A stretch of DNA of 45,350 bases from Anaerolineales bacterium (GTDB lineage: Bacteria; Chloroflexota; Anaerolineae; Anaerolineales; Villigracilaceae). Positions 28,740-34,644 of this stretch are shown here, one piece after another. A program made the translations under genes and the position numbers. Location of the stretch: NCBI GenBank assembly GCA_017882125.1, contig JADGQC010000003.1, forward strand, positions 1-45,350, given 5' to 3'. The notes under the pieces were generated by a model. That model was given only the letters and a program-made list of their open reading frames with translations, made no database searches and had not been told where the DNA came from. How positions within the stretch are numbered: position 1 is the first letter of the stretch; the number at the start of each line of letters is the position of its first letter.

Positions 28740-28778
28740 TACATTCCTCCAAATAATTAAACAATTTCACGGCGCATT

Positions 28779-28807
28779 ATTTTACAGCACGGGGGGGAAT
28801 CTGTCCA
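28779..28807 (-). promoter_or_regulatory. candidate rpsT promoter (TGGACA-N17-TAAAAT)
   Basis: Minus-strand hexamers upstream of rpsT. Confidence 0.6.
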
Positions 28808-28884
28808 GCCCGAAAGAGGAGTGAATTTGCGAGGAAAGAACAGGCGCAGCGTCCCCCCGGATATATTGCTTCCCCGGCAAAGTA

Positions 28885-29489
28885 TTTGTTCCTGAGGAAC
28901 AAACGAGGAACGAAAACATCTCGTTGTTCCTTCATATACATATACCAGGCTGGCGAGATCGTTCCGCGAAACAAACCGAAAACGAATAAATGCCTTTGGA
29001 AAGTTCCCATTTAATATCGGTAATACCCAAGAAATTGTTCGTTAGGAAACCAATTGTAAATTCCCAACGAACCGCCCCACCCTACCCCATTCGGCGCCTC
29101 ATGGCGCCGAACCAGCCGCCCCAAGGGGGTGCTTCCCCATTCGGGGACAATGTCGCGAATAGCAGCTCGAAGCCGCTTCGGCGAGTCCCCAAATACAAGA
29201 CCGGTATTTGGAGAGGGTGTTTTACCTGGATAGTGATGGGGGAACCTTTTGCGGCTCAAACACACGCACCGATGTGTGCGTGAAGAGGAACAATTCTTTT
29301 CCTGTAGGAACACGATTCTTATCGAGAGGATTTTCATTATATGAGCAGCAAAAACCATAGAAATGAATTGATTTGGTGGTTGATCCTGAGGATCAATTGC
29401 CGTACGCAAATATTGGGTTACCAGGAGAGGAATTTTGTGAATTGCCCGAATTAATGTGGAAACTTCGGAGGATGGCGCATGGCTCCGAA
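28885..29489 (-). ncRNA. candidate structured RNA or structured leader (hypothesis)
   Basis: Multiple perfect or near-perfect hairpins (28885-28903, 28896-28930, 29037-29072, 29090-29111, 29134-29147, 29168-29180, 29189-29211, 29263-29282, 29380-29396, 29464-29489) with no convincing coding ORF, downstream of a minus-strand consensus promoter at 29601-29629. Confidence 0.4.
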
Positions 29490-29600
29490 TAAAAGTCACT
29501 TATTGCGTGATTGTCGCGGGACGAATAGCATCTATATGGTTGTTAAAGTGCGGATGAAGATGTGGATCTATTCAAAACGAAAAAGGATTACCACAGAATG

Positions 29601-29629
29601 ATTATAGAATATATGTTCTAGTTTGTCAA
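29601..29629 (-). promoter_or_regulatory. sigma70-type promoter TTGACA-N17-TATAAT with an embedded LexA-box-like palindrome
   Basis: Minus strand: TTGACAaacTAGAACATATATTCTATAAT; the palindrome TAGAACATATATTCTA (29605-29620) spans spacer and -10. Confidence 0.65.
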
Positions 29630-29804: not shown

Positions 29805-32801
29805 ATGCAATCTTCCATTGAAAAACTGCGGAAGTTCTTCCGCCTTGAACATGAAAACGGGTATACGAATAAGGCTGTGATCGGCGGGTTAGCGAGTGTG
29901 CTGAATTTGTGGGAAGGGGAGGCACGCAATGACAAGCTACCGGAGGAGATCGTCCAGGCAACCGCGGCAACATTAAAGGCCTATGCCGAGCGAAGCCCCG
30001 AGGAGCGGCTTGAATCCCTGAAAGCCCTATGGAGGCAAATATCGGACAAAGTGCCAGAAGCGGCGTTGACGAAGAAGACCACCCCCGCAAAGTTCGTTCC
30101 AGCACCTGCCAAAGTCCACCCGCAAAGTGAACCTGCCATGGGGCAAATGCAGCCCTCGCAACCGCAGCCAAAACCGGCACCAAGCGCGGGACAGACTCAA
30201 TCTGCGGAAAGTGAATCACCTACAGAAACTTTCCCGGTGCAAACTCAAACCACAAAACCCGATGAACAGCCTGCCCCAAGCCTGGCACAACATCAACCCG
30301 CGAAGGTAGAGTCTCAGACAATACCGGTCGTGGAAAACCTGCAAGCGATGCAGATTGAGCCTCAACTGGTGCCTGTGGTGTCACAGCCAGCCAGAATACC
30401 AGCGGAAACAGTGCCAGAACCAGCAGCAGATAAACCGCAACCCAACCAAGCGGAGGAAAAGGCACAGGTTGGACAAAACGAAGAAGAAGGCATACCGGAA
30501 CCAGAAGCTCCTCCGAATGTGCCGATGCCCGCGGGGGAACTAGTTACGATTGATGCAGAACAAAATCCGGTAAGCGGGGTGCCAGGAGCGGGCCCGGAAG
30601 CAGAGTCGACTGCTCAAAACATAAAAATTGAACCGGCTACAAGCCGAGCCCCCACCCGGTCGCAACGACCAAAGGGGGCGATGCCAGGCCGCGCCGAAGC
30701 TCATCCGGGCGGCGTGACCAGTAAACGACCGATCGCCCTGAACGCGTCGCTAACCGTCCTGGCTGGGGTTGGACCCAAGCACGCTGCCATGCTGACCCGC
30801 CTGGGACTCAATAACCTGGGAGACATGCTCTACAATTATCCACGCCGCTACGAGGATTACAGCAAACTCAAACCCATCCGGGAAGTATTCTACGGCGAGG
30901 TGCTGACCGTGATCGGCGAGGTCACATCAATCACCTCACGGCAGGCATACGGGCGGAAAATGACCATCGTGGATGCCGTGATCAACGACGGGACAGGGGG
31001 ATTGCGCCTGACCTGGTACAACAAGCCCTGGCTGGTCAATCAAATAAAAGTAGGCGAGGCGCTTTCAGTTTCCGGCAAGGTGGACCAGTACCTGGGGCGC
31101 CTGGTGATGAAAAGCCCGGAGTGGGAACCCGTGGAAGTGGAGAACCTGCATACCAACCGGATCGTACCAATCTATGCGCTGACTGCAAACGTTTCCCAAA
31201 AGTGGCTGCGGACCTTGATGAGGCAGGTGGTGACCTATTGGGCGCCCAAACTGACCGACCACCTGCCCGAACGCATCCGACAGTCAGCGACCCTTCCAGA
31301 CTTGGGAACGGCACTACTGCAGGCGCATTTTCCCGATTCAGATGCCAAGCTGCAGGCAGCACGGCAGCGCCTGGCGTTCGATGAGATCTTTTTCCTGCAA
31401 ACCGGGGTGCTGCGACAACGGCGGGACTGGCAGTCAGCTCCAGGGCGAATATTTGAAGTTGATGAACCATGGATGGAAGCACGACTGGCTGCCCTGCCCT
31501 TTGCCCTGACGACTGCCCAGAAAAAATCGATGGATGACATCCGCTCCGACCTGAAATCCGGCAAGCCAATGAACCGACTGCTGCAAGGCGACGTGGGATC
31601 AGGTAAAACCGTGGTAGCGGCACTGGCGGCTGCGATGGTGAACCAGGGAGGAGCGCAGGCTGCCATCATGGCGCCAACGTCCATCCTGGCAGATCAGCAC
31701 TACCGCACATTCAAAAACGTACTGGCGGGTGAAAAAGGACCACTCAAACCAGATGAAATCCGCTTACTGGTGGGCGATACTTCGGCTGGGGATAAAGAGG
31801 GCATCCGGGCTGGGCTGGCGAGCGGAGTCATCAAAATCGTGATCGGCACTCATGCCCTGATCGAAGACCCGGTCACATTCGCGGACCTGCAGTACGTGGT
31901 GGTGGACGAGCAGCACCGATTTGGAGTGGAACAGCGGGCGGCTCTGCGTTCCAAGGGCACCAACCCGCACCTGCTGGTGATGACTGCCACACCCATCCCA
32001 CGTTCGCTGGCACTGACCCTGTACGGCGACCTGGACCTTTCGGTGATGGACGAGTTGCCACCCGGGCGCCAAACCATCCCCACGCACATCCTGACTCCGG
32101 TGGAACGGGAACGTGCTTATACCATTGTGCGAAGCCAGGTGAATGAGGGGCACCAGGCGTTCATCATCTATCCGCTGGTGGAAGAAAGCGAAAAAAGTGA
32201 ACTGCTGGCTGCCACCCAGGAACACGAACATCTGCAAAAAGAAATCTTCCCGGACCTGAAGCTGGGCCTACTGCATGGACGGATGAAGGGCGATGAAAAA
32301 GATGCGGTAATGCTGGCATTTCGCGAGAAACAATTCGACATTCTCGTCTCGACCACGGTAGTGGAAGTGGGCGTGGACGTGCCAAATGCCACTGTGATGT
32401 TAATCGAAGGGGCGAACCGTTTCGGGCTGGCGCAACTGCACCAGTTACGCGGACGGGTGGGACGCAGCGAAGCCCAGTCGTTTTGCCTGCTGATCCCCGA
32501 ACACGAGGATGCCGCTGAGAACGAACGCCTGAAAGCGATGGTTGAAACCAACGACGGCTTTATCCTGGCGGAACGCGACCTTCAGCAAAGAGGTCCCGGA
32601 GAATTCCTGGGAACACGGCAGGCAGGGTACGCAACCACCCTGAAGATGGCCAGCCTGAGCGACATCAAATTAATCGAAAAAGCCCGCACGGAAGCTCAGG
32701 CCCTTTTCGCGCGTGACCCCGATCTAAAAGATCCCGAAAACAGCCTGCTGGCTGAAGCGCTTGGGCGCTTCTGGGGCAGCGGGAAAGGAGATATGAGTTA
32801 G
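29805..32801 (+). CDS. recG: ATP-dependent DNA helicase RecG with an N-terminal helical domain and a long P/Q/E-rich linker
   Basis: LAGVGPKHAAMLTRLGLNNLGDMLYNYPRRYEDY (wedge), LLQGDVGSGKTVVAALAAAMV, DEQHRFGVEQR, MTATPIPRSLALTLYGDLDLSVMDELPPGRQ. Confidence 0.96.
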   Translation: MQSSIEKLRKFFRLEHENGYTNKAVIGGLASVLNLWEGEARNDKLPEEIVQATAATLKAYAERSPEERLESLKALWRQISDKVPEAALTKKTTPAKFVPAPAKVHPQSEPAMGQMQPSQPQPKPAPSAGQTQSAESESPTETFPVQTQTTKPDEQPAPSLAQHQPAKVESQTIPVVENLQAMQIEPQLVPVVSQPARIPAETVPEPAADKPQPNQAEEKAQVGQNEEEGIPEPEAPPNVPMPAGELVTIDAEQNPVSGVPGAGPEAESTAQNIKIEPATSRAPTRSQRPKGAMPGRAEAHPGGVTSKRPIALNASLTVLAGVGPKHAAMLTRLGLNNLGDMLYNYPRRYEDYSKLKPIREVFYGEVLTVIGEVTSITSRQAYGRKMTIVDAVINDGTGGLRLTWYNKPWLVNQIKVGEALSVSGKVDQYLGRLVMKSPEWEPVEVENLHTNRIVPIYALTANVSQKWLRTLMRQVVTYWAPKLTDHLPERIRQSATLPDLGTALLQAHFPDSDAKLQAARQRLAFDEIFFLQTGVLRQRRDWQSAPGRIFEVDEPWMEARLAALPFALTTAQKKSMDDIRSDLKSGKPMNRLLQGDVGSGKTVVAALAAAMVNQGGAQAAIMAPTSILADQHYRTFKNVLAGEKGPLKPDEIRLLVGDTSAGDKEGIRAGLASGVIKIVIGTHALIEDPVTFADLQYVVVDEQHRFGVEQRAALRSKGTNPHLLVMTATPIPRSLALTLYGDLDLSVMDELPPGRQTIPTHILTPVERERAYTIVRSQVNEGHQAFIIYPLVEESEKSELLAATQEHEHLQKEIFPDLKLGLLHGRMKGDEKDAVMLAFREKQFDILVSTTVVEVGVDVPNATVMLIEGANRFGLAQLHQLRGRVGRSEAQSFCLLIPEHEDAAENERLKAMVETNDGFILAERDLQQRGPGEFLGTRQAGYATTLKMASLSDIKLIEKARTEAQALFARDPDLKDPENSLLAEALGRFWGSGKGDMS

Positions 32802-33894: not shown

Positions 33895-34569
33895 TTACAA
33901 GGCGACGCTGCCCACATTACGAATGACCATCACCACTTTACCCTTGATCTCAAGCGGTTCAGCCTTGTCGATCATGATCGGCTTCATGGTGGGGTTGGCA
34001 GGCTGGAGCCGGTAGTGCTCCTTTTCCTTGAAGAAATATTTAAGGGTGGTCTCGTCACGATTTGGCAGCCATATGGCGACCATTTCACCGTTATTGGCCT
34101 TGACAGCAGGCTTTATTATGACGATGTCACCATCATTGATCATAGCGTCGATCATCGACTCGCCTTTGACCTTGAGGGCGAAAAGTTCACTGCCCTTTTC
34201 ACCGACAGGGAGCAGGCTGCGGGCTACGTCGACTGCGTCCATTTCGTTGCCGATGCCGAGATAGTTGGCACCCGGGGCGGGGACAAGCATGGGCTCACCG
34301 GCGGCAATCGGACCGAGGATGGGAATCTTCAACAGATCCTTGCTGACCGGATCCGTGAGACGGACGGCGCGCGAGAATTTTGCGTCGCGCTCGATAAGAC
34401 CCATCTCAGTCAACTGCTTTAAGTAGTAGGTAACGACGGAGGTGGAGGTAATCCCAACCGCCTCACCGATTTCACGGATGGAGGGAGGGTAGCCCGTACT
34501 CAGCCTTTCATTGAGATACTCGATTATTTTCTTATGGCGTTCTGTCAAACCTCTGCGAGTTCTGACCAT
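33895..34569 (-). CDS. lexA: SOS repressor LexA
   Basis: 224 aa; winged-HTH N-terminus, PILGPIAAGEPML (Ala-Gly cleavage site), GESMIDAMINDGD (Ser) and VKANNGEMVAIWL (Lys). Confidence 0.96.
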   Translation of the reverse strand: MVRTRRGLTERHKKIIEYLNERLSTGYPPSIREIGEAVGITSTSVVTYYLKQLTEMGLIERDAKFSRAVRLTDPVSKDLLKIPILGPIAAGEPMLVPAPGANYLGIGNEMDAVDVARSLLPVGEKGSELFALKVKGESMIDAMINDGDIVIIKPAVKANNGEMVAIWLPNRDETTLKYFFKEKEHYRLQPANPTMKPIMIDKAEPLEIKGKVVMVIRNVGSVAL

Positions 34570-34611
34570 TTGAACCTTCCTTTCTAATGATGCCAGCCAA
34601 ACATTTGTGCT

Positions 34612-34644
34612 AATTATAATACGAACACTCGTTCTATGTCAAGT
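34612..34644 (-). promoter_or_regulatory. lexA promoter (TTGACA-N18-TATAAT) with LexA box CGAACACTCGTTCT in the spacer
   Basis: Minus strand: TTGACATAGAACGAGTGTTCGTATTATAAT; box at 34622-34635 on plus. Confidence 0.8.

Follow-up and report, generated by a model that had tools for sequence, protein, structure and literature searches.

What occupies the 1,065 bp between the divergent genes rpsT (minus strand, start 28739) and recG (plus strand, start 29805) in the window, the 45,350-nucleotide stretch of an Anaerolineales bacterium (contig JADGQC010000003.1) analysed here? An earlier note had marked 28885-29600 as a hairpin-dense, apparently noncoding region and a candidate large structured RNA. 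The reading we favour, and hold to be probable, is that this gap holds a noncoding transcription unit of about 0.7-0.9 kb, SOS-inducible and encoded on the minus strand, which belongs to a genus-specific multi-copy family. A structured noncoding minus-strand locus is supported by the combination of a promoter, same-orientation homologues elsewhere and covarying hairpins in a related module; that part of the proposal stands, while the single RNA gives way to a mosaic of dispersed modules, and the limits shift: on the minus strand the element runs from the promoter at 29629 to the end of its last module at 28884.

Is the region truly hairpin-dense and noncoding? The hairpins named in the note are present where it placed them. 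Between 28780 and 29640 there are 10 perfect hairpins with a stem of at least 6 bp, against 2.4 ± 1.5 in dinucleotide shuffles (maximum 7, n = 200), and 6 whose stem reaches 7 bp or more (shuffles 0.68 ± 0.85, maximum 3); by the latter threshold no part of the window is denser, the mean per 860 bp being 0.63 against 6 here. The shuffle-controlled folding check gives a more local answer, the folding energy being clearly better than that of shuffles solely at 29000-29199 (at 29000-29149, z is -4.1 on the plus strand and -3.0 on the minus strand); z in the remaining tiles lies mostly between 0 and -3. The open reading frames 29011-29499 (minus), 28990-29283 (plus) and 28777-29010 (minus) match no Pfam family at E ≤ 1, in keeping with the low plausibility as protein accorded to the first two, and the Rfam covariance models match nothing in the interval at the gathering threshold or at E ≤ 1, the flanks giving just a tRNA and a csp gene. 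By these tests the region is noncoding and belongs to no Rfam family.

The start of the element, a promoter, had escaped the note. Of the two promoter-like sites that the interval contains, the one at 29629-29601 points through the entire hairpin region and would drive its transcription on the minus strand. Its spacer contains a LexA-box-type dyad matching in form those of lexA and recA of the same genome. Indeed, lexA lies in the window itself (33895-34569, minus strand; PF01726 and PF00717), and its promoter, TTGACATAGAACGAGTGTTCGTATTATAAT, has a GAAC-N4-GTTC box placed as in the window promoter; the recA promoter, TTGACG..GAACATCTGTGC..TATACT, has a box of like kind and placement, and the promoter of uvrB in the genome G001 is of the window type. 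The family consensus for the dyad is TAGAACATATGTTCTATAAT. GAAC-N4-GTTC is the form given for the B. subtilis-type SOS box (PMC4234289), and the window shares with it a spacer dyad of this form, differing in a second half that reads ATTC instead of GTTC. LexA would be expected to bind the window dyad. As a separate observation, the lexA region (33895-34642, minus strand) has two boxes, TAGAACGAGTGTTCGTA inside the promoter spacer and TAGCACAAATGTTTGG just downstream.

Is this arrangement peculiar to the window? The homologue search found parts of the interval repeated at scattered places in this genome, where the promoter pattern, at three mismatches or fewer, has 30 sites (11 exact, with some ten close ones besides) against 2 for the reversed control. 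Most of these sites open long hairpin-dense noncoding stretches composed of common blocks: a variable 5' hairpin, the box CYTTAANAAYTGA, GTTCCTC at 11-bp spacing, two-hairpin modules and palindrome cassettes. The same layout is found in genus mates. Sites of the strict pattern number 12 in G000, 18 in G010, 10 in G001, 9 in G005 and 6 in G007, and 0-5 in the remaining genomes among 150 of the family, with zero matches for the control. All these counts come from pattern and model searches plus retrieved loci; they are lower bounds, because the genomes are fragmented drafts whose contigs are often broken by the arrays. A limited literature search, which is no proof of novelty, found no description of this array family.

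Structure was tested on the module R1, of about 150 nt (hairpin 1, TTAATAATGAAGAAGCCCTCGAAGAGAA, hairpin 2), of which 17 copies align well. Its two hairpins covary: two-sided changes number 32, compared with 13.3 for shuffles and 0-17 for slid partners, and 94% of the alignment cells in its helices are paired. The covariation sought in homologues is found in this sister module, from its 17 copies, the diverged copies of the window subtype being too few. Within a locus, hairpins 1 and 2 tend toward one common stem sequence, and this stem differs between loci. By the R1 model, six genomes of the genus have 41, 15, 7, 4, 3 and 2 copies, and the other 146 of the 152 family genomes have none. For 62 copies the upstream sequence extends to 150 nt or more; a LexA-type promoter (four mismatches or fewer, about 130-740 nt away) precedes 45 of these in the same orientation and a single one lies on the opposite strand, a co-orientation of 45:1 that disfavours random insertion. 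In 36 distinct promoters, the positions left free by the pattern still read GAAC-N4-GTTC (C in 32 of 36, G in 35 of 36), and some R1-linked promoters have kept the dyad though the -35 element has decayed. Furthermore, the motif GTTCCTC occurs behind the promoters 69 times in sense and 5 times in antisense orientation. Together, co-orientation, covariation and dyad retention point to selection for an SOS-inducible RNA.

How does the window belong to this family? On sequence grounds its element is a sister subtype of the R1 arrays, its membership following from the promoter, the S-box and module copy 1. The S-box has 13 copies in 785 kb of retrieved loci, 9 of which, in five genomes, lie 99-314 nt behind a same-strand SOS promoter. 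Eight more copies of module 1 exist in the genome (76-92% identity): five are 163-412 nt behind a same-strand SOS-type promoter (the one at 310 nt having a weaker promoter), one is directly behind a terminase-small-like gene (contig C78) and two are cut by contig ends. Module copy 2 is 71-75% identical to the copies on C145 and C153 and matches R1 weakly at 29340-29272 (8.5 bits), and C153 holds a colinear relative of window positions 29092-29549. The cassette block has many partial genomic copies in shuffled order (e.g. C108, C4, C153 and C218) and is also present in several relatives. In the direction of the predicted transcription, the features are as follows.

29601-29629, minus strand: promoter TTGACA-N17-TATAAT, start of the element; 12/12 match to the sigma-70 consensus and exact match to the family pattern.
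29606-29619, minus strand: LexA-box-like dyad AGAACATATATTCT (GAAC-N4-ATTC), within the promoter spacer.
29562-29594, minus strand: 5' hairpin region (GTGG...CCAC), positional equivalent of the variable 5' hairpin of other members, weak in the window.
29539-29550, minus strand: box CACTTTAACAAC; many members have such a CYTTAANAAYTGA-like box about 50-140 nt past the promoter.
29485-29528, minus strand: promoter-proximal S-box CTATTCGTCCCGCGACAATCACGCAATAAGTGACTTTTATTCGG, with copies behind SOS promoters in four other genomes.
29464-29489, minus strand: hairpin TTCGGAG-N12-CTCCGAA.
29285-29396, minus strand: module copy 2, with hairpin TTGATCCTCAGGATCAA, core ATAATGAAAATCCTCTCGATAAGAA and a GTTCCTC segment.
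29263-29282, minus strand: hairpin CACGCAC-N6-GTGCGTG.
29090-29222, minus strand: palindrome-cassette block, with the CCAAATAC hairpin, the CGAAG hairpin, the TCCCC hairpin and TTCGGCGCC-ATGA-GGCGCCGAA.
29037-29072, minus strand: hairpin GTTCGTTGGGAA-N12-TTTCCTAACGAAC.
28884-28988, minus strand: module copy 1 (105 nt), with hairpin 1 ATTCGTTTTCGGTTTGTTTCGCGGAACGA, core ATATGAAGGAACAACGAGATG and hairpin 2 TTCGTTCCTCGTTTGTTCCTCAGGAACAAA.
28779-28807, minus strand: rpsT promoter TGGACA-N17-TAAAAT, separate and outside the element.

The model we propose for this unit is the following. LexA bound to the dyad between the -35 and -10 elements would block transcription; upon DNA damage the repressor would be cleaved and RNA polymerase would proceed, yielding a transcript that would begin with the 5' hairpin and the short conserved box and continue with one or more two-hairpin modules interspersed with palindrome cassettes. 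The sense motif GUUCCUC(C), repeated in the modules, is complementary to the Shine-Dalgarno-like GAGGAAC, so that an array, once induced, could base-pair with numerous mRNAs or soak up an RNA-binding protein, several copies of the motif being carried by each molecule. Riboregulation of this kind would be the most likely role, and we advance it tentatively, as a possibility. A pairing of the core GAAGGAAC with GUUCCUC was also considered: it fits the window module and fails in the others.

Several points weigh against an SOS-inducible RNA of this family. The window matches R1 weakly (8-10 bits), and its LexA box is imperfect, since the second half-site of GAAC-N4-ATTC departs from GTTC. Seventeen of the 62 R1 copies have no recognisable promoter; moreover, the 17 R1 seeds were picked downstream of promoters, so that part of the 45 co-oriented copies is so by construction, about 20 further loci not having been picked in this way. 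The M modules fold about as well antisense (mean z -2.9 vs -2.4), and folding therefore does not choose the strand. Finally, no intrinsic terminator was found at the downstream end of the element.

In the main rival reading, an SOS-induced phage-like element would have left the arrays behind as its remnants or satellites, their promoter, leader and hairpin modules deriving from a terminase/portal operon and serving at the DNA level, for instance as packaging-type sites, or persisting as debris. The same promoter and 5' hairpin leader precede terminase-small-like genes (C164, L107), a terminase-large-like gene (L129) and a portal-like gene (L104), which is why satellites or packaging-type sites come into question; the noncoding member L069 has a leader closely like those of L089 and L102, and the module 1 copy on C78 stands directly behind its terminase-small-like gene. 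We nevertheless consider this origin unlikely, since most members have no phage gene, the hairpins covary, dozens of copies retain the LexA-type dyad, which is unexpected for debris, and an SOS promoter alone is common to any SOS gene. The loci L103 (own contig C164), L107, L129 and L104 are in themselves a predicted SOS-controlled phage-like packaging module, found in several genus mates. Just past the promoter, L069, L089 and L102 have a terminator-like hairpin (GGCAAGGGAC...GTCCC TTGC TTTTTT); behind it the 3' arm is repeated (GCCGTCCCTTGCC), and this repeat could pair alternatively, in an attenuator-like manner.

Functionless MITE/REP-like mobile palindromes (miniature inverted-repeat transposable elements, repetitive extragenic palindromes), gathered in an intergenic hotspot, are somewhat less probable still. 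The elements are multi-copy, intergenic, palindromic and frequently at contig ends, the A-A'-A-A' arrangement of their stems resembles terminal inverted repeats, the cassettes at 29090-29222 are widespread in shuffled order, and Y1 transposase genes are present. Their numbers (1-6 per genome), however, do not track the element counts across the genus; the stem sequences vary between loci yet stay paired, and the modules, far from being indifferent to orientation, follow the SOS promoter 45:1. The REP/MITE alternative raised in the note is consequently disfavoured as pure insertion and survives in part, as REP-like cassettes within the mosaic (e.g. 29113-29159). REP-like palindrome cassettes, whose tetraloops (ATGA/ACGA) are conserved while their stems vary freely, occur throughout the intergenic regions of these genomes; those at 29113-29159 have similar counterparts in C4, C91, C216, C28 and several relatives.

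That rpsT has an extremely long, regulated 5' leader here, another suggestion of the note, is highly improbable. The element and rpsT share a strand and no clear terminator separates them, so that read-through into rpsT under SOS conditions is possible; rpsT nevertheless possesses a separate promoter, which G002, G007 and G010 retain while lacking the hairpin region. Other members of the family precede glmS, ftsK, NAD kinase or convergent genes, and those facing a convergent gene are not leaders. In G007, other genes separate rpsT from recG over about 4 kb, and a LexA-type promoter divergent to recG (L274:3491, minus strand), placed as in the window, is followed by a different element subtype and then by a convergent lipoprotein-like gene; such a promoter divergent to recG is absent in seven other genus mates. 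The other relatives examined have different neighbours at rpsT and recG, and the upstream regions of both genes are too diverged in relatives for a clean reading of an empty site or a target duplication.

Small SOS-induced peptides of the type I toxin kind are the least probable of all: in the 105-nt copies a short frame (MK.[QL]RDVFVP.LFL) starts at the core ATG, but no Shine-Dalgarno-like sequence precedes it, in several R1 copies (L056, L091 and L149 among them) the frame runs for just 7-9 codons, the core ATG frames are not conserved across modules, and there is no Pfam match. A retron-type noncoding RNA was also discarded, no RVT_1 reverse transcriptase being found in G000, G010, G001 and G007.

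To our knowledge, few LexA-controlled regulatory RNAs have been recognized, mostly as single enterobacterial genes. DinR of Klebsiella, a LexA-controlled small RNA, silences translation by pairing at a ribosome binding site (PMC10907235); the predicted arrays would likewise form a noncoding tier of the SOS response, differing from DinR in being many stand-alone modular loci that have LexA-type promoters of their own and lack an mRNA parent. LhrC1-5 of Listeria are multicopy stress-induced small RNAs, short, tandem and LisR-controlled, with repeated C-rich (UCCC) sites thought to bind Shine-Dalgarno sequences (PMC4132741). The present arrays are also multi-copy and repeat a C-rich sense motif (GTTCCTC, 69:5), yet not UCCC, its pairing with mRNA being putative; they are long and dispersed, with a LexA-type promoter. 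With REP elements, bacterial interspersed mosaic elements and MITEs they share dispersed intergenic palindromes, as in the cassettes at 29090-29222, and differ by their strict co-orientation with an SOS promoter and by stems that covary and are not copied.

If the SOS-inducible reading is true, most of the predicted SOS regulon of these bacteria would consist of noncoding RNA, with 10-40 modules per genome in arrays that each have a LexA-type promoter. Have lineage-specific modular noncoding RNAs, in the expanded genomes more numerous than the SOS genes that encode proteins, taken over the regulon of this genus, perhaps having arisen from a phage-like packaging-operon leader, and do they serve as multivalent riboregulators when DNA is damaged? 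We put this forward as a speculation somewhat firmer than the riboregulatory role taken singly, though well short of probable. The genus, with its expanded and its element-free species, is a ready comparative set for testing the role of such RNAs.

Two further observations concern protein genes. In many genus mates the gene of a conserved membrane protein (L085, L086, L094 and L164) has double LexA-type boxes and is a predicted SOS gene. The recG product of the window (29805-32801, plus strand) has a long Pro/Gln-rich N-terminal extension, of which the first 90 residues or so are conserved in the genus and the following linker varies.
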